Assembly (NCBI RefSeq): GCF_028421645.1
Contig: NZ_CP116887.1
Coordinates: 4,094,001 to 4,158,000 of the forward strand
DNA: 64,000 nt
Direction: 5' to 3'
DNA from: Aneurinibacillus sp. Ricciae_BoGa-3
GTDB taxonomy: Bacteria > Bacillota > Bacilli > Aneurinibacillales > Aneurinibacillaceae
The position numbers and the translations under genes are program-made. Under the pieces are notes generated by a model. That model saw only the letters and a program-made list of their open reading frames with translations, had not been told where the DNA came from and searched no databases. Positions 2,244 to 16,769 of this stretch are shown piece by piece; positions within the stretch are counted from its first letter, which is position 1, and each line of letters begins with the position of its first letter.

Positions 2244-2411
2244 AATTTGGAAAATACCTTCAATGTAGATCAAATAACACACATGGATCAAGTCTATTAG
2301 GCTCAATCCTATGGTAAATCTATGAATCTTATTTAACATGCTGCAAATTCAAAATTTTGATAAGTTGAAAGTGGAAATAAATTCTGTAGTAAGCGTAAGG
2401 AGGACAAAAGA

Positions 2412-4511
2412 ATGGACAAGGACAATCGTTCGTTAAGTGGCCAGCAGCGATCTCATTATGTGAGGATACCCGGGAGCGAGCGAACCGCGTTACCCAATAC
2501 CAGAAAAACAGGCCCGGTCAATCCTGATGAAGAGATGTCGGTAACTGTACTTGTACGTCGCCCCCCAGCTCCCAGTTTACTAAAGAAAACTGATACTCCC
2601 CCTTTCTCTTTAGGCCAGCATTTTACCCGTGAGGAATTTGCTGCGGCTCATGGTGCGAACGAAAGTGATCTGAAAAAAGTCGAAAAATTCGCCCATAACC
2701 ACGGCCTAGCGGTTAAAGAAGTGAACCCGGCAGCCGGAAGCATGCTGCTTACAGGAACAGCAGCATCCTTTAGTAAGGCCTTTGCTGTTGAGCTCGCACA
2801 CTATGAGCATCCCAACTTTACCTACCGTGGACGCATTGGGCATGTTAGCATCCCACAGGAACTTGCCGATATTGTCGAAGCGGTGTTAGGTCTGGATGAG
2901 CGGCCACAGCTTAAGCCTCATTTTCAGGTTTTTGAGGAAACAGAAGAATTTGCACGGCCCAACAAGACGAGAATATCTTATACCCCAGTCGAAATCGCGG
3001 AGCTTTACAATTTTCCTTCGAATATAAATTGCAGCGAACAGTGTATCGGTATTATCGAATTAGGCGGCGGCTATAATCCTGCTGAGCTTCAACAATACTT
3101 CTCCTCTCTTGGAGTTGCTGAGCCAGCGATTACAAACGTATCCGTGAACGGGGCAACCAATCAACCGACTGGAGACGCCAATGGACCTGACGGTGAAGTC
3201 GTATTAGACATCGAAATAGCTGGAGCTGTTGCACCTGGAGTAAAAATTGCGGTTTATTTTGCCCCTAACACAGATGCAGGATTCCTTAACGCAATTACGA
3301 CCGCTATCCACGACACCCAAAATAAGCCTTCGGTGATTTCAATTAGTTGGGGGAATGCGGAGAATCAATGGACAACTCAGGCTATGAAAGCTATGGATCG
3401 AGCCTTTCAGGATGCAGCAGCGGTTGGGGTAACCATTTGCTGCGCAGCAGGGGATCGCGGCTCGGCCGATGGCGTAAACGATGGGCTCGTGCATGTGGAT
3501 TTTCCTGCTTCTAGCCCCTTCGCTCTTGCATGCGGTGGCACACGGCTGGAAGGGTCAGGCGATACCATTACCCAGGAAAGCGTTTGGAATGAAGGTCCAG
3601 ACAGCAGCACGGGTGGCGGAGTCAGTGATGTATTTGATCTGCCAGTTTGGCAAACCTCTGCCAACGTCCCCCCTTCAGCAAATCCAGAAGGCCGAAAAGG
3701 ACGAGGTGTTCCCGATGTAGCGGGAGACGCCGATCCCGCTACCGGTTATCAAATTTTAGTAGATGGACAGCGAACTGTAATTGGCGGAACGAGCGCGGTG
3801 GCCCCTCTCTGGGCAGGATTGATTGCCCTGATTAATCAGCAGTTGGGTCATCCGATAGGTTTTGTTAACCCTACTCTCTATGCTCTGTCTACTCGTGGCA
3901 GTGCCTTTTATGATATTACAATTGGAAACAATGAATCAAGTCGGGAGAGCGGGGCTTATACAGCCGGGCCCGGCTGGGATGCCTGTACCGGCCTCGGAAG
4001 TCCAGATGGTACAAATTTAATCAACGCACTTCAAAGCTTCAAAACTTCGAGTGGAGGCATTCTTATGTCTGGCCATGCTCCCGCAGAAAAACACCCTATT
4101 TTCGGACATACGCTTTCAAACGAGCGATTGCCTTTTCACGTTAATCCGTTGTCTCTTCACGGACCGCTTGTACACCTTAAAGGGACCATTAAAAAAGTGG
4201 AACCCGATGTTACGTTTCACGGTACCTCCCACTATCATCTTATTATCAATCATATCGAACTAATCAGCATAAAAGGAGCCGACCCATCGATCGTAACAGA
4301 CGAATGTTTTTGTGCCATTCGTTATGGGGATAAACTTGGCCTGGGGCAGCCCATTGAAGGGCTTGCAGAAGGACAATTGATCGAGCTTCAAGGAGAATAT
4401 ATTGATAAAAATCATGCTTATCCTTCCTTAGGAAACCCGGGAGATCCTGTGCTTCACTTTACGCACCATCCTGTTGGATTTGTCATCTACAAAGGGAAGC
4501 GCTATGAATAA
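2412..4511 (+). CDS. S53 family peptidase (kumamolisin/sedolisin-like) with an extra C-terminal domain
   Basis: 699 residues. Residues about 40-185 match the pro-kumamolisin activation domain, and the S53 catalytic domain runs from about 190 to 550. The Ser-Glu-Asp triad is visible: E262 and D266 (GEVVLDIEIAG), the oxyanion Asp D348 (AAGDRGS) and nucleophile S461 in IGGTSAVAPLW. A calcium-site-like TIGNN...GPGWDACTGLGSPDG segment ends the domain. Sedolisins are endopeptidases usually active at low pH. No signal peptide is evident, as in several bacterial kumamolisins. About 145 further residues follow (GTIKKVEP... to HFTHHPVGFVIYKGKRY) that are not part of the peptidase fold and resemble DUF3465-type small domains. 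The RBS AAGGAGGA lies about 9 nt before the ATG. Confidence 0.93.
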   Translation: MDKDNRSLSGQQRSHYVRIPGSERTALPNTRKTGPVNPDEEMSVTVLVRRPPAPSLLKKTDTPPFSLGQHFTREEFAAAHGANESDLKKVEKFAHNHGLAVKEVNPAAGSMLLTGTAASFSKAFAVELAHYEHPNFTYRGRIGHVSIPQELADIVEAVLGLDERPQLKPHFQVFEETEEFARPNKTRISYTPVEIAELYNFPSNINCSEQCIGIIELGGGYNPAELQQYFSSLGVAEPAITNVSVNGATNQPTGDANGPDGEVVLDIEIAGAVAPGVKIAVYFAPNTDAGFLNAITTAIHDTQNKPSVISISWGNAENQWTTQAMKAMDRAFQDAAAVGVTICCAAGDRGSADGVNDGLVHVDFPASSPFALACGGTRLEGSGDTITQESVWNEGPDSSTGGGVSDVFDLPVWQTSANVPPSANPEGRKGRGVPDVAGDADPATGYQILVDGQRTVIGGTSAVAPLWAGLIALINQQLGHPIGFVNPTLYALSTRGSAFYDITIGNNESSRESGAYTAGPGWDACTGLGSPDGTNLINALQSFKTSSGGILMSGHAPAEKHPIFGHTLSNERLPFHVNPLSLHGPLVHLKGTIKKVEPDVTFHGTSHYHLIINHIELISIKGADPSIVTDECFCAIRYGDKLGLGQPIEGLAEGQLIELQGEYIDKNHAYPSLGNPGDPVLHFTHHPVGFVIYKGKRYE

Positions 4512-7575: not shown

Positions 7576-7860
7576 TTAAACCTCCATTGCACTTGCCAGA
7601 GCCACGAGCTTGTTTAACGTTTCCCAGCTACGCACGGTCGCTGGGACATCTAGCTTCTGAAGGTTGTCGGCAAGCTTGGAATTGCGTATGCTATGACGGA
7701 ATAAAAGGAAGACATCTCGGCCCAGAACATTGCCGCTTTGAATATACGTTTGAACTCGACTCAGGCCCATTTCTTCAAAAGTGCGCTTCAATTCAGCCAT
7801 CTTGATCATATTCTTTCCGCCTACGTTAATACCCCGTAACAGCGCGATATAAATCGTCAT
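7576..7860 (-). pseudogene. DUF1697 gene with a large internal deletion
   Basis: 94 codons. The first 46 (MTIYIALLRGINVGGKNMIK ... YIQSGNV) match the N-terminus of DUF1697 proteins; the last 45 or so (RNSKL..LQKLDVPATVRSWETLNKL) match the family C-terminus. The family is normally about 180 residues, so the middle half is absent while the frame is kept. Whether the short product is made is unknown. It is most simply read as a deletion derivative. Confidence 0.7.
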
Positions 7861-8229: not shown

Positions 8230-8430
8230 GTAAAAGCCGTTGTTGTGGCAAGAGAAGGAGCAGAACTCACAGAAGAAGATATCATTCAATACTGTGAAAG
8301 AAAATTGGCCGGGTATAAAAAACCAAAATCAGTAGACTTTGTCAATGAACTCCCACGTAATCCTTCGGGTAAAATTTTAAAAACGGTATTACGCGATTCT
8401 TATTGGGAAAATCAAAGCTTGAAAATTTAA
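8230..8430 (+). pseudogene. C-terminal fragment of an AMP-forming acyl-CoA synthetase/ligase
   Basis: The frame reads VKAVVVAREGAELTEEDIIQ, then YCERKLAGYKKPKSVDFVNE and LPRNPSGKILKTVLRD. This is the C-terminal AMP-binding subdomain, including the A10-type PSGKILK lysine motif. A TAG stop in the same frame upstream (about 8215) and the missing 400-plus N-terminal residues show that only the tail remains. Confidence 0.75.
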
Positions 8431-8610
8431 TATTCATTCACAACTATAGTTTTAAGCTTTATGATTGCCTTCCAGTTGCGTAATGTTGCTGGAACACCTA
8501 ACTTTTGAAGTTGAATGACTAGTTTAGAATTCCGAATGCTTTGACGAAAATATAAGTAAATCTCTTTACACTCGATGTGGTATTCATCTATTTCACTTCT
8601 CAAGTTAAGT
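8427..8610 (-). pseudogene. Second DUF1697 3'-end remnant
   Basis: The frame reads SEIDEYHIECKEIYLYFRQS, then RNSKL..QLQKLGVPATLRNWKAI: the C-terminal third of DUF1697 proteins. It is a diverged relative of the fragment ending at 7576 in the same orientation, and the two flank the amidase and ligase remnants. The open frame extends to 8669, but that part overlaps a terminator hairpin and has no family similarity. Confidence 0.6.
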
Positions 8611-8624
8611 AAATATTTGAAAAT

Positions 8625-8653
8625 AAGGGAAGCCCTAGGGCTCCCTTGTTTAT
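8625..8653 (-). terminator. Terminator downstream of the glucan synthase gene (bidirectional)
   Basis: AAGGGA(A)GCCC-TA-GGGCTCCCTT is a 10-bp stem with one bulge. On the minus strand ATTTTC follows; on the plus strand TTGTTTATTTT follows. It lies about 30 nt past the glucan synthase stop. Confidence 0.65.
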
Positions 8654-8678
8654 TTTGCTCCTCTTGCACACAGTTCCG

Positions 8679-11600
8679 TTACCCTACTGTACTTGAACGC
8701 TCCAAACTTGCTTGAACGACTACTTGATGCACTTTACCATCATCCACAAGTTGCAAGTACGGCTGATTCCCAACTACCTTACCGTCAACCATCCATGTTA
8801 AAGGGACTCTAAGACTTTGTCCACAGTAGACCTCAATCGAATACGTTGTTTCGCCGTATCTGTAGTCGATGGTGAACGATTTCCATTCAGGCGGCACACA
8901 GGGTTCAATATACAGTTGATCTCCCCGGCGCTTGACACCCAATACATACTCCAACCCTGCCTGGTACATCCAACCAGCAGCTCCTGTATACCACGACCAG
9001 CCAGCTTGACCTTGATGAGGATTTGCCGTGTACACGTCAGCCGACATCACATACGGTTCATTTGCATACGTCTGGACTTCTCGGGATGTTCGCGTGTGTG
9101 AGATTGGATTGAGCATGGAAAACAGCTCAAATGCCTTGTCACGCCGCCCCAACATCGCCCAGGCAACAATCCCCCAAATGACACCATGGGTATACTGTCC
9201 ACCGTTCTCGCGAATTCCCGGTGGATAGCCCTGGATGTATCCTGGGCTCGGACGCGTCTCATCAAACGCTTTTGTCAACAACCGCGCAAGATTCAAATCT
9301 CGATCCACAAGCTCACGATCAAACGAGCGCATCGCCCGCGATTGCCGGTCGGCAGATGTCCCCTGCGAGAGGACCGCCCACGACTGTGCGATAGCGTCAA
9401 TTCGACACTCCTTGTTCTTAATCGAGCCAAGCCATGTTCCGGCATCGGTGTACGCCCGGCGAAACCAAGCGCCATCCCAAGCATAATCGTTCAGGTGCTG
9501 CTCCAGTTCGCGCGCTGATTGTTCAAACTGGTCTACCGCATCAGTAGGAATGATACCGTCTTCCATTCCCGTAAACCGCTTCAGGATGTCCAGCAGGAAC
9601 CAGCCAAGCCAGACGCTTTCCCCACGCCCTTTCGCACCGACGCGATTCATCCCATCATTCCAGTCGCCAATGCCCATTAGCGGAATCCCATGTTCGCCGA
9701 ATTTTAAAGCATGGCGAATGGCTCGCAGGCAGTGCTCCAACAGCGATCCCGTTTCGTCAGACTTAACCGTATCTTCATATCGCTCCAATTCCCCCTCCTT
9801 AAGCACATCGCTATGCAGGAATGGCACGTTCTCTTTCAAAATATCGAAGTTTCCCGTCTGTTCTAGATAGCGAGATACGGCATATGGGAGCCAGAGTAGA
9901 TCATCTGAAAACCTTGTACGAATTCCTTTGTGTGTTTCTTCGTGCCACCAATGTTGGACATCGCCTTCTTGATACTGATGAGCAGCGTTAATTAATATTT
10001 GCTTCCTGGCAATCGACGGGTCCGCATGTAGGAACGCAAGCGAGTCCTGCAATTGATCTCGAAATCCAAATGCACCGCCAGCCTGATAAAACGCGGTTCG
10101 AGCCCACAATCGACAAGTCAGCGTTTGGTACAAGAGCCAGCCGTTCATCATCAAATCCATCGCGCGATCCGGTGTCTTCACCTGCACTTGCCCAAGAACG
10201 CGCTTCCAATATTGTGTCACACTTGCAAGCGTATCCTCGTAGGCAGAAGGTTGGCCATACTGCCTAATAAGCGAATGTACCTCGTCTTTCGACGACGCAC
10301 AGCCTAGTAAAATAGTAACCGTAATGTCGTCTTTTGCGGGGAGTTCAACCACAGTTTGCAGAGCCCCACATGAATTGGAAAATGCACCGGTTTGCTTAGA
10401 TAGTTTTTCTTCTAAAAGTGCTGTCGGGCACTCTAATGTACCACCACGACCGATAAATTCTGTTCGGTCTCCAGTCCAAGAATAGAGCTGTTCCGGTATC
10501 TTCGCCATCGGATCCGGCAGTGCGATATGCATAAAGCCAACCGCATCACGAAACGTCTCTTGATACGTGTTACGAGCAAGCAAGGCGCTATGCTCCTTAT
10601 CCCATTCGGTAACAATGAAGGGTGCCTGTGCTTCCCGCATAACCCCAAGAACCCACTCAGCGTAATACGTAATGGAAATCCGCTTTATGGCTTCGCTTGT
10701 ATTGCGTACACGGAGTTGGATAAGCTTCAGCGAATCGTTCAATGGAACTGTCGTCTCCATCGTGTGCACGACATCGCCATCCAGTTGTTCAATCTGACTA
10801 TACCCCCATCCGTGTTTGACCTTGTACGTTCGCTCGCCACCTGCTGGTTTGGGGGCAGCCGACCAGACTTCATTGGTGTCAAGGTCGCGCAAGTAGAGAC
10901 ACTCGCCAGGTCGGTCAAGAACCGGATCGTTCGTCCAGGGCGTGAGTTTACACTCCCGTGAGTTACGCCACCATGTATAACCCGTTCCAAATTCTGTAAG
11001 GATGCAACCAAAACGAGGATTGGCGAGTACATTGCTCCACGGCTTCGGTAGATACGATTCATTCCGTACGTGAACTTGATACGCTCGACCTCCCTCGGTG
11101 AAACTACCCCAACCATTGAAAAATTCACCTTCTGCGGAAATACCGGACGGTTGTTGTTGATTCCGATGCCTTTCTCGGATTTGTACAGGTCGTCGCTGCG
11201 AAAGCCGTATTTTCCCTTCGTCGACTCGCAACTGCGCATGCAAGCTTGGCCCTCCCGCTCGCAGTAAGACACGTGCAACCGCTGTGAGAAGAGTTCGTTC
11301 ATTCTCTGACAGTTGAGACGCCTTCAATCCTACAATTCGCTTCATCTGTCCAATTCCTCGCGCAGCGAGATTGTCCCGCAAACGGTTCATAAGTTGATCC
11401 TGGTAGCCACCGATGGTCTCATCGAGCACCACAAGGTCGACTTCCAATCCAAGCATACACAAATACTGGTGTTGGTGTGCTAATTGAGTGACGAAAGGCA
11501 AATCCGCCAGGTTGCTGACTGAAACCACAACAATTGGCGCGTCGCCGCTAATTCCATGCGACCACAAGGCAGACTGGCCTAAAGCATTGTGTGAGATTGC

Positions 11601-14600
11601 ATTCCGTCGCACGGGCGTAAGCGGCGGTGTAAAAAGGAGACGGCCCGCCAAAAGATGTGCATCTGATGCCTGTATCGGCGTAAGATGTAGATGTCGAAGA
11701 TCGATTTGCGCGCGTACCCATGACAAATGGAAAGTTCGATCCGCTTGCTTCGGCTCACGCAGGCGATGTACAATGTCAAGTGCTTGCTCACGGCTTTCTG
11801 CAACCCCTGTCACAATATACACCGTAGCCGACTCCTGCGGTGCCAATTGAATACAACGGCGCATAACAAAAGCTGGATCCACTACAGAACCAACGGACCC
11901 ACGTAGTCGTGCGTTTATTGCCTTTGGTGCTTGGAGTGAATAACCGCGGCCAATAAACTGAGCGCGATCTGTCTCGAACTCATAATCGCCTGTCTCACTT
12001 CCATCGACATAGACGGTGTGAACGGCCCATGTCTCCTGCTCATCATCCTCTCTCGGACGCCGCTTCGCCAACAAAGATTGTGTCTTTGCGTCGTGGCCCG
12101 TTTCTATGAATAACTTGCTAAAAGCCGGATGTGCATGGTCTGCCGATGGGCTTGCCAGCGCTAACTCTAGAAAGGAGGTTACTTCCAACGTACGCTCTTC
12201 GCTGCTGTTGTTGACCAATCGAAGACGCCGTACCTCCGCGTCAACATCCGGAGAAATGGTCAATTCAAGTTTGGATGAAATGTCGCTATAAGTCCCTTCA
12301 TAAGTCGTTTTATCGAGACGAAACACGGCTCGCGTGTCTCTAACCACCTGGGAAGGGAATCTGGTCATACTCCAAGTCTTCTCTGACGTGGCGTCATGAA
12401 TGTAAACAATAGCACCTGATGTATCAACAACTGGATCTTCCCGCCACCTTGTGACCGCAAGGCCGTTCCATGTGAGTGTACCGGTTCCATCGTTCGTGTT
12501 CAAACTAGTCATGCGGCCGTTTGATAACACGTTGACTTCCGGTACAAGGGTCGGTTCAGTAAACGTGCGTTCCGCATCGGCCGACTGGCCCTCAAATTCC
12601 GGCACCTTCGCATGGAGCCCAATCGGCTCTTCAATCAGCGCTGCGTTCACAGGTATCCTCTCCTGTAGAAGCAAATCTGCTGCGCATACGCGTGGATCGG
12701 TATGGAATCGCTTCACCATGATTTCATCTGCCAACAAATTGATAAGCGTCAACATGCTCATGCCTTGATGGTGAGCCATGTAACTTTGCACGACCTGGTG
12801 ATGATTACCCTGCGGCAGACGTGTTTTTGTAAAATCAACAGCTTCATAAAACCCGTACATGCCTTTCGCACCATAATCTTCAAACTTACGCAACGCTGCG
12901 AGCCCGGCATCCCCCGCATATGGCAGACCCATGATGGTGGCATACGGTGCAACGACCAAATTGCGTTCCAAGCCACGTTCAAGTCCAAGTCCGGGAACAC
13001 CAAAAGCCCGATATTGATAGTTCAATTGATAGTCAAACCCATAATAGCCGCTCTCCGAAATGCCAAACGGCACCTGGTGTTTGGCCGCGTACACCCTTTG
13101 TCGATGAACAACACCCCGGTAAGTAGAGTCCCAGATCGTGTTTCGATAGGTCCGCATAATAAGACTCGGCATGAAATACTCAAACATTGTGCCAGACCAA
13201 GATAACAGCGTCTTACAGTTACCGGAAATGGTCATCGTTCGTCCCAGAGTAAACCAATGAGAAACTGGAATTTGCCCTAATGCAATAGCGACAAAGCTCG
13301 CTTGTCTAGCTTCCGATGCCAGCAAATCATAAAGAATGGTATCTTTTTGGTTCGTGTCGACATGATAGCCCAAACAGAACAGTCGCTCATCCGAGTTATA
13401 CAGCGCCTTGAAGTTAGTCTGTTCTATGAACTGGTCGATTTCTCTGATGATTTTCTCCATGCTATATTGAAAACTTATATTGCGACGACTCCATTCATGT
13501 ATTCCCTTCCGCACGACCATCAGGTAAGCGACTAAGTTTCCAGAGTCAACCGTGGAAACGTATCGAGGTACAAGAGGCTTAGCTGAACGCGTATCATACC
13601 AGTTCAACAGATGCCCATTCCATTTTTCCATGCTTACCAAGGTTTTCATCGTTGCTTCAATCCGTTTGATCATCGTAAGCGTGTCGATGAAATCCAGATC
13701 ACGTGCAGCCACGACAGAAGCAAGGTAGAGTCCAATATTAGTCGGCGACGTGCGATGTGCAACAATCTCCTTTGGATGATATTGTACATTGTCGGGCGGA
13801 AGCCAAGACTCTTCCGCCGTAACGTATCGCTCATAAAACGACCAGATTTGTAACGCTAATTCCCTGAGTTCAGGACGCGCAACATTCAGCCATGTGCGAG
13901 CATCTACTTTTTGCGGACGGTTCAATTGCTGCATGACGGGTCTGGCTAGAAGCCAAATGACAAGAGCCACAACACCAATCACGCGATTAAAAATCCCACC
14001 GGAAAGCCAAGCTACTACGGCAAATAAGGAAATGGCGATGTAGCCGGCTGGCTCAAACATAAACACGCGTCCTTTTACGGAACTGTGATCCGTCTGGGCT
14101 GATGTGACCCACTCCAGCAAATTGCGCCGACTGATAAACAGGCGGTAAATCGTTCGCACAATGGCGTCTAAGGTAAGAACAGCGGCAAACGGCAGCGGCA
14201 ACAGCTGTACAGCACTTTGCATGAAAGTCACGCCAATCGTACGGCTCCTGCTCCGGCCAACCGCTCCTCGTGGAATAGCCCGCAGAAATGGGAGAAAAAT
14301 CGTTAACAGCACAATTGTTTCCCACACCCATACCCGGCCAGGCAGCACCCCCAGTCCGAGCAGTGCAACCAATAAGAGGGCTGGCGCAAGTAAGCTGCGG
14401 CGCAAATTATCAATGATTTGCCAACGGGTCAGCCCGCACAAATCAACTCGTCGGCTCTCACCATGGCGATCTTTACAGCTCGTGCCCAACCACTTAATGA
14501 GCTGCCAATCCCCCCGAATCCATCGGTGCGCACGTCGCTCGTAAGCATAAAATGTGCCCGGGTGCGACTCGACCACTTCGATGTCGGATGTCAATCCAGT

Positions 14601-16769
14601 GCGTAGAAATCCTCCTTCAAGTAAATCATGACTCAACACATGATGATCCGGAATGCGGTTCACCAGGGTCGTGTGAAATGCCTCAACGTCAAAGATGCCT
14701 TTGCCGACAAAGATTGCATGGCCAAACAGATCTTGATAAGCATTCGAGACAGCAAAAGCGTATGGATCAATACCAGGTTCACCAGCCCACAGTGAGGCAA
14801 AACGGGATGTGTGTGTCGAATCAAAATTTACGCCAATACGGGGCTGCAGTACACCAAACCCTGCGATCACACGCGTTCCCGCGTCATTGAGCCGCGGCCG
14901 GTTGTAAGGAAAATGAATGGTACCCGCCAGTCGGCTCACGACACCAATCGGAAGTTGTGTATCGTGATCGGCCGTAAATACATAACGAATATTTTTCAGG
15001 ATATCTTTTTGTCCATGTATCGTTGTAAAACTGGTATGGTCACTGCCCGACAAAAGCTCGACGAACTCGACGAGTTTGCCGCGTTTGCGCTCCCAGCCCA
15101 TATAAATGTTGTCAACTGAATTGTAAAGGCGGGATCTGTGAAATAGAAAAAATTTGTCAGCTCCATACTGCTTACGTAAAGCGTCAATTCGTCCGATCGC
15201 GTGCGTAAGAATCTTCGTATCGTCTGCCTGCCTCTCGGTCGGTGCATCTGAAAAGTCTGCTAATATGCCGAAAAAAATGTTCTGTTGACGGTTTGCCAGG
15301 TAGTGAATCAAGAGTCGATTGACCACGTCATCCACTTCTTCAACGCTGGACCAAATAACCGGCATGACGACCATCGTACAGGCATCATCGGGCAGCTTTT
15401 CAGAAAAATCGTAACGCAGAAGCGTAATAGGGCGCAAGCATCGAACAATTACTCCATGTACAATCGTTACAACCCATTCACTGACAGGCAAAACGAGAGC
15501 TGCTACGACCGCAATCCAAGATATAGGGCGAACGGTCGTCCCGTACGTCGCCCATCCCCCAGCAAGCAGCATTAGGCCAACAAACAGTAAAATTAAGCTC
15601 AACAAATATACGGATAGTGGCCGGCGACGGATGGCAAGGTGCGGTAGGCGGCGCGGGCGCGTCACCGTGCAGAGCGCTGCTCGCATAGCCCTGATTCCTT
15701 CCGCATCGAGTAAATAATAAGCAAGACACCCATCCCGGGGCAGCAAATTTGCTTGATCTAGGTATATTTGTCTGGATTCGGCAAGCCGCACGACGGTTTG
15801 GGCCACTAACGTTTCCGGAACATTTAGTTGATGCGCAAATTCGGCAACACGTCCACGTAGTAAGTCGCGACTTGCAAAATCTAGATGTTCATATTCGCTA
15901 TTTGTGTCAGAAAGAAGAATTTGCTCCACATGAGAAATCTTCGTAAACGTTAATCGCCATGGCAGGCGCTCTAGAACGTGTAAACTTTGCACCAAATTGC
16001 CACAAGTCACCTGCAGTTCTGCCTGAAGCTGATGCTCAAACGAGACCATCTGCTCAAGGCTGGATTCACTATTCTCAACATGGGCCGCAAGCCATTCGTG
16101 GATCACTCGAATATCTGGCTCCCATTCACTCAAGTGCCGGATGAAATGTACGACTTCGATTGGACCCAGCGGTTTTTTTCGTGCTTCTCGCTCCAATATG
16201 GAACGTATCTTGGCGTCCGACATGTTCTTTACGCCTATTCGTTCAAGCAAGGATGCGATTGAATCACATACCTCATGGTGATACCGCACCTTGCGCATCG
16301 CTTGCGCCAAACGGCGAATAATGATAACGCGCATGGCGCTCGGTAACGCCCAACATTCCATAATTTTGAGAACAGAAACTTCCTGATAGGATTGCAGGTA
16401 GTTTTCAAACGAGTGCACGTCGTAGCATCCGTCCACATGCTCCAAATAATCGTTGCAAATAGCATATATCCGCGGCATTCCAGTAGATCGCAACCTTGGC
16501 AACTGTTGAAGCGTTGCCCGGGGCAGTTTTCGAATGACAACTTGTGCTTGAGTCTCCAGGAAGTTGATATGATCAAGCAGCCAATCTTCTGCAGGTTGTT
16601 TACAGTGCACTCTGCTGTTGCTTAAATGCTCGGCAAACGCGTGCAAACTGGCCATATCTGACCGAAAGGCCGGCCAAAATCGAGCAATTGGCCGGTTGGT
16701 TGTACATAATTCATGGGTCAAGGCAAACTCGTGTGCCCTTGCTCGTAGTTGTTCAGTGTTAAAAATCAT
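8679..16769 (-). CDS. Cyclic beta-glucan synthase-like giant protein (GT84 / glycoamylase-like / GH94, NdvB/ChvB type)
   Basis: 2,696 residues, close to NdvB/ChvB (about 2,800). Order: a helical N-terminal region (1-370); transmembrane segments near 380-443; a GT84-like domain with DHDTQLPIG near 603 and RWIRGDWQLIKWL near 750; more membrane helices near 790-945; a glycoamylase-like domain with GISESGYYGFDYQ near 1236 and HHQGMSML near 1333; then carbohydrate-binding and GH94 phosphorylase domains with GIGDWNDGMNR near 2368 and a YVLGVKRRGDQLYIEP tail. Known enzymes polymerise UDP-glucose into beta-1,2-glucan and cyclise it. Substrate and linkage here are inferred. The RBS GGGAGGA is 4 nt before the ATG. 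It appears monocistronic. Such enzymes are well known in Proteobacteria and less usual in Bacillales. It could also be called a GH36-type hydrolase domain protein. Confidence 0.88.
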   Translation of the reverse strand: MIFNTEQLRARAHEFALTHELCTTNRPIARFWPAFRSDMASLHAFAEHLSNSRVHCKQPAEDWLLDHINFLETQAQVVIRKLPRATLQQLPRLRSTGMPRIYAICNDYLEHVDGCYDVHSFENYLQSYQEVSVLKIMECWALPSAMRVIIIRRLAQAMRKVRYHHEVCDSIASLLERIGVKNMSDAKIRSILEREARKKPLGPIEVVHFIRHLSEWEPDIRVIHEWLAAHVENSESSLEQMVSFEHQLQAELQVTCGNLVQSLHVLERLPWRLTFTKISHVEQILLSDTNSEYEHLDFASRDLLRGRVAEFAHQLNVPETLVAQTVVRLAESRQIYLDQANLLPRDGCLAYYLLDAEGIRAMRAALCTVTRPRRLPHLAIRRRPLSVYLLSLILLFVGLMLLAGGWATYGTTVRPISWIAVVAALVLPVSEWVVTIVHGVIVRCLRPITLLRYDFSEKLPDDACTMVVMPVIWSSVEEVDDVVNRLLIHYLANRQQNIFFGILADFSDAPTERQADDTKILTHAIGRIDALRKQYGADKFFLFHRSRLYNSVDNIYMGWERKRGKLVEFVELLSGSDHTSFTTIHGQKDILKNIRYVFTADHDTQLPIGVVSRLAGTIHFPYNRPRLNDAGTRVIAGFGVLQPRIGVNFDSTHTSRFASLWAGEPGIDPYAFAVSNAYQDLFGHAIFVGKGIFDVEAFHTTLVNRIPDHHVLSHDLLEGGFLRTGLTSDIEVVESHPGTFYAYERRAHRWIRGDWQLIKWLGTSCKDRHGESRRVDLCGLTRWQIIDNLRRSLLAPALLLVALLGLGVLPGRVWVWETIVLLTIFLPFLRAIPRGAVGRSRSRTIGVTFMQSAVQLLPLPFAAVLTLDAIVRTIYRLFISRRNLLEWVTSAQTDHSSVKGRVFMFEPAGYIAISLFAVVAWLSGGIFNRVIGVVALVIWLLARPVMQQLNRPQKVDARTWLNVARPELRELALQIWSFYERYVTAEESWLPPDNVQYHPKEIVAHRTSPTNIGLYLASVVAARDLDFIDTLTMIKRIEATMKTLVSMEKWNGHLLNWYDTRSAKPLVPRYVSTVDSGNLVAYLMVVRKGIHEWSRRNISFQYSMEKIIREIDQFIEQTNFKALYNSDERLFCLGYHVDTNQKDTILYDLLASEARQASFVAIALGQIPVSHWFTLGRTMTISGNCKTLLSWSGTMFEYFMPSLIMRTYRNTIWDSTYRGVVHRQRVYAAKHQVPFGISESGYYGFDYQLNYQYRAFGVPGLGLERGLERNLVVAPYATIMGLPYAGDAGLAALRKFEDYGAKGMYGFYEAVDFTKTRLPQGNHHQVVQSYMAHHQGMSMLTLINLLADEIMVKRFHTDPRVCAADLLLQERIPVNAALIEEPIGLHAKVPEFEGQSADAERTFTEPTLVPEVNVLSNGRMTSLNTNDGTGTLTWNGLAVTRWREDPVVDTSGAIVYIHDATSEKTWSMTRFPSQVVRDTRAVFRLDKTTYEGTYSDISSKLELTISPDVDAEVRRLRLVNNSSEERTLEVTSFLELALASPSADHAHPAFSKLFIETGHDAKTQSLLAKRRPREDDEQETWAVHTVYVDGSETGDYEFETDRAQFIGRGYSLQAPKAINARLRGSVGSVVDPAFVMRRCIQLAPQESATVYIVTGVAESREQALDIVHRLREPKQADRTFHLSWVRAQIDLRHLHLTPIQASDAHLLAGRLLFTPPLTPVRRNAISHNALGQSALWSHGISGDAPIVVVSVSNLADLPFVTQLAHQHQYLCMLGLEVDLVVLDETIGGYQDQLMNRLRDNLAARGIGQMKRIVGLKASQLSENERTLLTAVARVLLRAGGPSLHAQLRVDEGKIRLSQRRPVQIRERHRNQQQPSGISAEGEFFNGWGSFTEGGRAYQVHVRNESYLPKPWSNVLANPRFGCILTEFGTGYTWWRNSRECKLTPWTNDPVLDRPGECLYLRDLDTNEVWSAAPKPAGGERTYKVKHGWGYSQIEQLDGDVVHTMETTVPLNDSLKLIQLRVRNTSEAIKRISITYYAEWVLGVMREAQAPFIVTEWDKEHSALLARNTYQETFRDAVGFMHIALPDPMAKIPEQLYSWTGDRTEFIGRGGTLECPTALLEEKLSKQTGAFSNSCGALQTVVELPAKDDITVTILLGCASSKDEVHSLIRQYGQPSAYEDTLASVTQYWKRVLGQVQVKTPDRAMDLMMNGWLLYQTLTCRLWARTAFYQAGGAFGFRDQLQDSLAFLHADPSIARKQILINAAHQYQEGDVQHWWHEETHKGIRTRFSDDLLWLPYAVSRYLEQTGNFDILKENVPFLHSDVLKEGELERYEDTVKSDETGSLLEHCLRAIRHALKFGEHGIPLMGIGDWNDGMNRVGAKGRGESVWLGWFLLDILKRFTGMEDGIIPTDAVDQFEQSARELEQHLNDYAWDGAWFRRAYTDAGTWLGSIKNKECRIDAIAQSWAVLSQGTSADRQSRAMRSFDRELVDRDLNLARLLTKAFDETRPSPGYIQGYPPGIRENGGQYTHGVIWGIVAWAMLGRRDKAFELFSMLNPISHTRTSREVQTYANEPYVMSADVYTANPHQGQAGWSWYTGAAGWMYQAGLEYVLGVKRRGDQLYIEPCVPPEWKSFTIDYRYGETTYSIEVYCGQSLRVPLTWMVDGKVVGNQPYLQLVDDGKVHQVVVQASLERSSTVG

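Follow-up and report, generated by a model that had tools for sequence, protein, structure and literature searches.

Organisation of the fused gene

The 64,000-nucleotide stretch of Aneurinibacillus sp. Ricciae_BoGa-3 DNA analysed here (the window) carries on its forward strand an uninterrupted ORF of 699 aa at 2412..4511, which combines a pro-kumamolisin activation domain, an S53 catalytic domain, a linker and a DUF3465-like domain. A Shine-Dalgarno GGAGG, recognised as a pattern match, lies on the same strand at 2399..2403, 8 bases before the ATG at 2412. Against Pfam the complete ORF matches the pro-kumamolisin activation domain (PF09286, E 5.4e-21; residues 29-163, 2496..2900) and a subtilase-clan catalytic domain, the S53 domain being placed at residues 189-541 (2976..4034). 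Membership of S53 is indicated both by the presence of the activation domain and by the Glu-Asp-Asp-Ser catalytic residues, all of which are kept (E262, D266, D348 and S461 in an alignment to 1t1e). In a sequence search of solved structures, residues 19-541 match kumamolisin 1t1e with an E-value of 4.7e-191 and the match stops at 541, close to residue 545, where the peptidase fold had been predicted to end.

What follows is a linker (residues 542-570, 4035..4121) that carries the His-rich leader of stand-alone proteins (EKHPIFGHTLSNERL), and then the DUF3465-like domain (residues 564-699, 4101..4508). The original prediction had placed this region at 3980-4511 and had given it about 145 residues; the extra region does exist and all the residues quoted for it lie within the ORF, but position 3980 still belongs to the catalytic domain, and the additional region, 155 residues long, starts at about 4035. 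When residues 545-699 (the tail) were searched alone no match was obtained in Pfam, NCBIfam or the sequences of the PDB. The tail could be ruled out as the standard S53 C-terminal region and does lie outside the S53 fold, as had been supposed, given that the kumamolisin match ends at 541 and that tailless paralogues end there too. Judged from its sequence, the product would be a kumamolisin-type acid endopeptidase that has no leader and has gained a C-terminal OB-like domain predicted to fold independently.

Elsewhere in the window a single ORF of 2696 aa (8679-16769, reverse strand) reads by eye like a cyclic beta-glucan synthase with glycosyltransferase and phosphorylase-like parts. Two short ORFs on the reverse strand, 7576-7860 and 8427-8669, share a similar stretch (RHSIRNSKLADNLQKLDVPATVRSWE and RQSIRNSKLVIQLQKLGVPATLRNWK) and are possibly pieces of a dispersed repeat.

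The C-terminal domain and its relationship to DUF3465

AF2 modelling of the tail from a 60-sequence alignment gave a structure that is nearly all strand with a pLDDT of 88.6 and a pTM of 0.83, and in the model of the full protein a low-confidence linker at 549-566 (pLDDT <50) is followed by a confident, separate beta domain, in agreement with the small beta-rich C-terminal domain that had been predicted. A fold search of the PDB with the tail model returned matches with E-values of 0.018 or worse and TM scores of 0.3-0.5 on the query. The leading matches, individually weak, were nearly all to OB-fold proteins, among them the agrin NtA domain, PriB, SSB and editosome proteins. An OB-like barrel is therefore likely for the tail; the OB fold that had been suggested is thus recovered as a prediction and in nearly all of the leading fold matches, but each of those matches is weak. 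Nucleic-acid binding, which the likeness to SSB and PriB might bring to mind, is not supported: those matches are too weak, and with 11 K/R and 15 D/E the tail has a nearly neutral net charge of about -3 at pH 7.

Resemblance to DUF3465 had been proposed from the residue pattern, and its fate depends on whether the window tail or its family is considered. PF11948 does not match the window tail, whether at E<=1 or at E<=10, but 29 of 61 tail-family members match it at E<=1, and one (L055) lies above the curated cut-off at 35.7 bits against 25, the sole homologue among those scanned singly to do so. From L055, annotated Vibrio DUF3465 proteins can be reached by tblastn (8e-7 to 1e-4). Furthermore, an hhalign comparison of the tail family with 21 genuine DUF3465 proteins, taken from the class of a Paraburkholderia genome, gave a probability of 98.7 and an E-value of 1.5e-16, with the motifs Q-G-E-Y/G-E-Y, H-F-T-H-H/H-W-T-H-H and the terminal G-x-x-Y all in register. 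The relationship to DUF3465 thus holds at the level of the family, whilst the window tail itself is below PF11948 detection.

The G-x-x-H-Q and H-W-T-H-H patterns and a Gly-rich end are common to both families, and the profile alignment pairs H607, H682, T684 and H685 of the window protein with H75, H125, T127 and H128 of DUF3465. No row of the family alignment lacks H607 (4230..4232, forward strand), which corresponds to the invariant H75; after this conserved His the window protein has Y where DUF3465 has Q. The signature V680-L-H-F-T-H-H-P-V688 (4449..4475, forward strand), in which H682, T684, H685 and P687 are conserved, is the counterpart of the DUF3465 H-W-T-H-H-D. As some propeptide-less fusions have Asp at the H682 position, this His is not strictly required. 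A functional site would first be sought at H607, H682, T684 and H685, which the two families have in common. No N-terminal membrane or signal segment is present in the window tail or in the Bacilli stand-alone copies examined; most genuine Proteobacterial DUF3465 rows have a hydrophobic N-terminus when judged by eye. Since the family matches PF11948 and the window tail does not, the tail family is, on these alignments, a DUF3465-related sister subfamily with two insertions, and not DUF3465 as Pfam defines it.

Distribution and gene neighbourhoods

More than 50 homologues of the tail are found in other genomes at 29-67% identity, so its residues are not random. A scan of 84,980 species genomes yielded 54 loci, and all but three of Alicyclobacillus type encode small proteins of about 140 residues, which upholds the expectation that the stand-alone form predominates. 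Stand-alone homologues occur in Tumebacillus, Cytobacillus, Neobacillus, Ectobacillus, many Paraburkholderia, Rhizobium and cyanobacteria. Among 400 sampled genomes of the window's class the domain is present in 27 and its fusion to S53 in 14; a search for the same architecture elsewhere thus found 13 fusions besides that of the window, twelve in family code f8 and one in f43. Beyond the class the domain proved rare: in a phylum-wide sample it was seen in one of 399 genomes, namely the window genome itself, where no second copy was found, and in the sampled phylum of a Paraburkholderia in three of 399. The fusion to a sedolisin had been called unusual: with 14 of 400 class genomes and at least two origins within S53 it is not unique. 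Long frames in Azospirillum (L053) and at L174 were considered as further fusions and rejected, as they look like GC-rich chance frames. No tail homologues were found in the annotated phages searched and a PHROGs search gave matches at chance level only; one viral-labelled contig (L056/L159) carries a homologue.

The domain also occurs in architectures outside S53. In a Stanieria plasmid protein of 857 aa (L086:2634-5204) it stands at the end, behind Trypsin_2 and Endonuclease_NS. The gene after this one is annotated as a matrixin family metalloprotease. At L149:5803-6555 (reverse strand, genome G047) the domain lies behind what appear from the sequence to be two membrane segments, within a prophage-like cluster that has Amidase_2, a papain-family/SPOR protein and a protein that by eye looks NlpC-like. 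Papain-family genes adjoin stand-alone copies at L004 and L056 and are nearby at L149; the neighbours of most stand-alone copies are not proteases. The neighbours vary, for example an alpha/beta hydrolase in Rhizobium and, in some Bacilli, papain genes or genes for SLH proteins, and no single conserved operon partner was found among them. In most of the Paraburkholderia loci (26 within L009-L046) one gene family lies a few hundred bases behind the domain gene, and the member tested is an M23/LysM peptidase. The link of the domain to proteases is thus an apparent trend.

Origin of the fusion

The junction between protease and domain retains what looks like the beginning of a gene. At 4053..4067 on the forward strand lies GGAGGCATTCTTATG, apparently the relic, or a still working version, of the ribosome binding site and start codon (4065) of a former stand-alone gene. 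The DNA here runs ...TCG AGT GGA GGC ATT CTT ATG TCT..., that is GGAGG, seven bases and an ATG in frame, and a product begun at 4065 would comprise M552-E699, 148 aa. Stand-alone relatives have their binding site and start in the same place (in Tumebacillus, CCTGGAGGTGTTCCCGATGTCC), and the EKHPIFGHTLSNERL that follows the internal ATG matches the stand-alone leader HPIFGHTLAN, which is absent from the Alicyclobacillus-type fusions. The two strands of the window together have 17 instances of GGAGG-N5-9-ATG, one of them being the start of the protease itself (2399-2414), so a chance occurrence in frame exactly at the domain boundary is unlikely. The genome has one other kumamolisin gene, a paralogue whose catalytic domain is 77% identical and which has no tail, ending ...DALKA-stop at the equivalent of window residue 543. 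Together the tailless paralogue, the GGAGG-N7-ATG and the stand-alone N-terminal sequence at the junction suggest that an entire adjacent stand-alone gene was recently fused to a kumamolisin gene. On the simplest reading the stand-alone gene would have lain directly behind the kumamolisin gene and the stop codon between them would have been lost, with the old ribosome binding site and leader being kept inside the new ORF.

The window-type fusion is known from this one genome, and an unfused adjacent pair of kumamolisin and stand-alone genes was found in no genome examined. In an empty-site comparison, a genome of the same genus had neither the protease nor the tail, nor anything close to the VanW gene that adjoins them in the window; in another genome, whose VanW protein is 79% identical, no S53 gene lies next to VanW.

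In a tree of the catalytic domains the window protein pairs with its own tailless paralogue. Both belong to a clade of 16 kumamolisins with propeptides, and all 15 members other than the window protein are without a tail. The 13 other fusions fall in a second clade of 19 proteins with no propeptide, long and fully supported branches separating the two. Members of this second clade (L006-L008, L065-L075, L108-L111, L113 and L117) have intact catalytic residues and no evident signal peptide, and would be missed by a search with a propeptide model. Tailed members are intermixed with tailless ones, which end after the catalytic domain (L108-L111, L113 and L117), and since deep support is weak there may have been one fusion event within the clade or several. 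The deep Bacilli branches in the tree of the tails are not resolved either and speak neither for nor against a common source of the fused tails. Nevertheless, the tree of the catalytic domains, the paralogue without a tail and the leader kept from the stand-alone form lead to the conclusion that the S53 plus DUF3465-like architecture arose at least twice independently.

Possible role of the domain

By analogy with the C-terminal domains of secreted proteases (PMC11294657), the domain may be a tethered accessory binding module of the protease, a proposal to which we would give an even chance. Once the propeptide is removed the domain would act as a flexibly tethered module, holding the protease on a surface or polymer such as the cell envelope or a bulky substrate, and catalysis would not depend on it. 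A metal or ligand may be bound by the conserved His residues, or these may make binding pH-dependent, and the internal start may also yield a free copy of the domain. Several of the propeptide-less fusions have long Pro-rich linkers, which are typical of tethered modules and count toward this proposal, as do the Stanieria trypsin-like protein and the papain-family genes near some stand-alone copies, and the separate joining in Alicyclobacillus-type bacteria suggests that proteases benefit from the domain. Weighing against the proposal are the neighbourhoods of most stand-alone copies, where proteases do not adjoin, and the restriction of the window fusion to one genome. DUF3465 is not known to have a ligand, surface or substrate; the open papers found to mention it either list it or place it in a gene neighbourhood.

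It would seem quite improbable that two adjacent genes were merged here by faulty assembly, by a sequencing error or by a newly arisen stop-loss mutation. Only about 10 codons separate the end of the catalytic domain from the internal start, the junction codons CAA, AAA, TCG and GGA are each one substitution from a stop, and the fusion comes from a single genome with a reported contamination of 7.47%. However, the assembly is of two contigs and 99.56% complete, a base error would have to fall in that short stretch, and the pairing of S53 with the domain is real in independent assemblies. Neither alternative forward frame has a stop between the catalytic-domain end and the internal start, so a simple indel would give no tidy gene pair. 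Somewhat easier to entertain, yet still unlikely, is that the free domain is the product that matters, the locus being in effect two genes in which 4053-4067 starts the 148-aa protein; the fused form would then be a mere by-product of reading through a lost stop. The retention of a well-spaced Shine-Dalgarno together with a complete stand-alone leader would fit such an arrangement, as would the lack of another copy in the genome; but separately arisen fusions are kept in at least 13 genomes, mostly without a comparable internal start, which argues that elsewhere the fusion as such is favoured.

A different function for the fused domain, as an intramolecular inhibitor, chaperone or stability cap that replaces the work of the propeptide in the propeptide-less Alicyclobacillus-type clade, is improbable in our estimation. 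It is true that the domain is joined to an S53 clade entirely without propeptides, that papain-family peptidases lie near some stand-alone copies, and that the top fold match, albeit weak, is the agrin N-terminal domain, which the titles of its PDB entries call related to TIMP inhibitors. Yet OB folds are too general to support an inhibitor reading, the window protein has both propeptide and tail, and some propeptide-less S53 proteins keep all their catalytic residues without having a tail, so the domain is not a required replacement for the propeptide. A broader and rather doubtful idea is that the DUF3465-like barrel is a general protease partner recruited several times, with the window gene yielding both fused protease and free domain; if true, such a partner would span kumamolisin-type S53, propeptide-less S53 and a trypsin-like plus nuclease protein.

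Comparison with known systems

S53 proteases, DUF3465 and C-terminal accessory domains are each familiar, and it is their combination that appears to be new; the pairing of S53 with a DUF3465-like domain was not found in the open papers searched, which are part of the whole literature. Kumamolisin and kumamolisin-As (MEROPS S53; 1t1e and 1sio) have the same propeptide and catalytic domain, with the Ser-Glu-Asp residues and homology over 19-541, but the window protein differs from them in its added 155-residue C-terminal region; kumamolisin-As is described as having a catalytic domain without a collagen-binding domain (PMC11294657). The Alicyclobacillus-type propeptide-less fusions (L006-L008 and L062-L075) share the order of S53 followed by the DUF3465-like domain, with catalytic residues intact, but differ from the window protein in having no propeptide, a catalytic identity of about 42-46%, linkers of their own, some Pro-rich, and no stand-alone leader. 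DUF3465 itself (PF11948), which is mainly a single-domain family of Proteobacteria, has the same homologous barrel with the G-x-x-H-Q and H-[WF]-T-H-H motifs, whereas in the window subfamily extra residues are inserted ahead of R-Y-G-D and within the A-Y-P-T loop, and both W-N-x-K-G-G and the N-terminal membrane segment are lacking.

Collagenolytic proteases with the C-terminal binding domains PPC, PKD and CBD (PMC11294657) likewise have a catalytic domain followed by a tethered domain; the window domain is unrelated to these, and a binding role for it would be by analogy. As DUF3465 is without known function, its repeated, independent fusion to proteases of known activity offers a first handle, since these enzymes lend themselves to assays in the presence and absence of the domain. 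Furthermore, the ribosome binding site that was apparently kept makes the window gene legible as a gene fusion at an early stage, for which the tailless paralogue in the same genome serves as a control.
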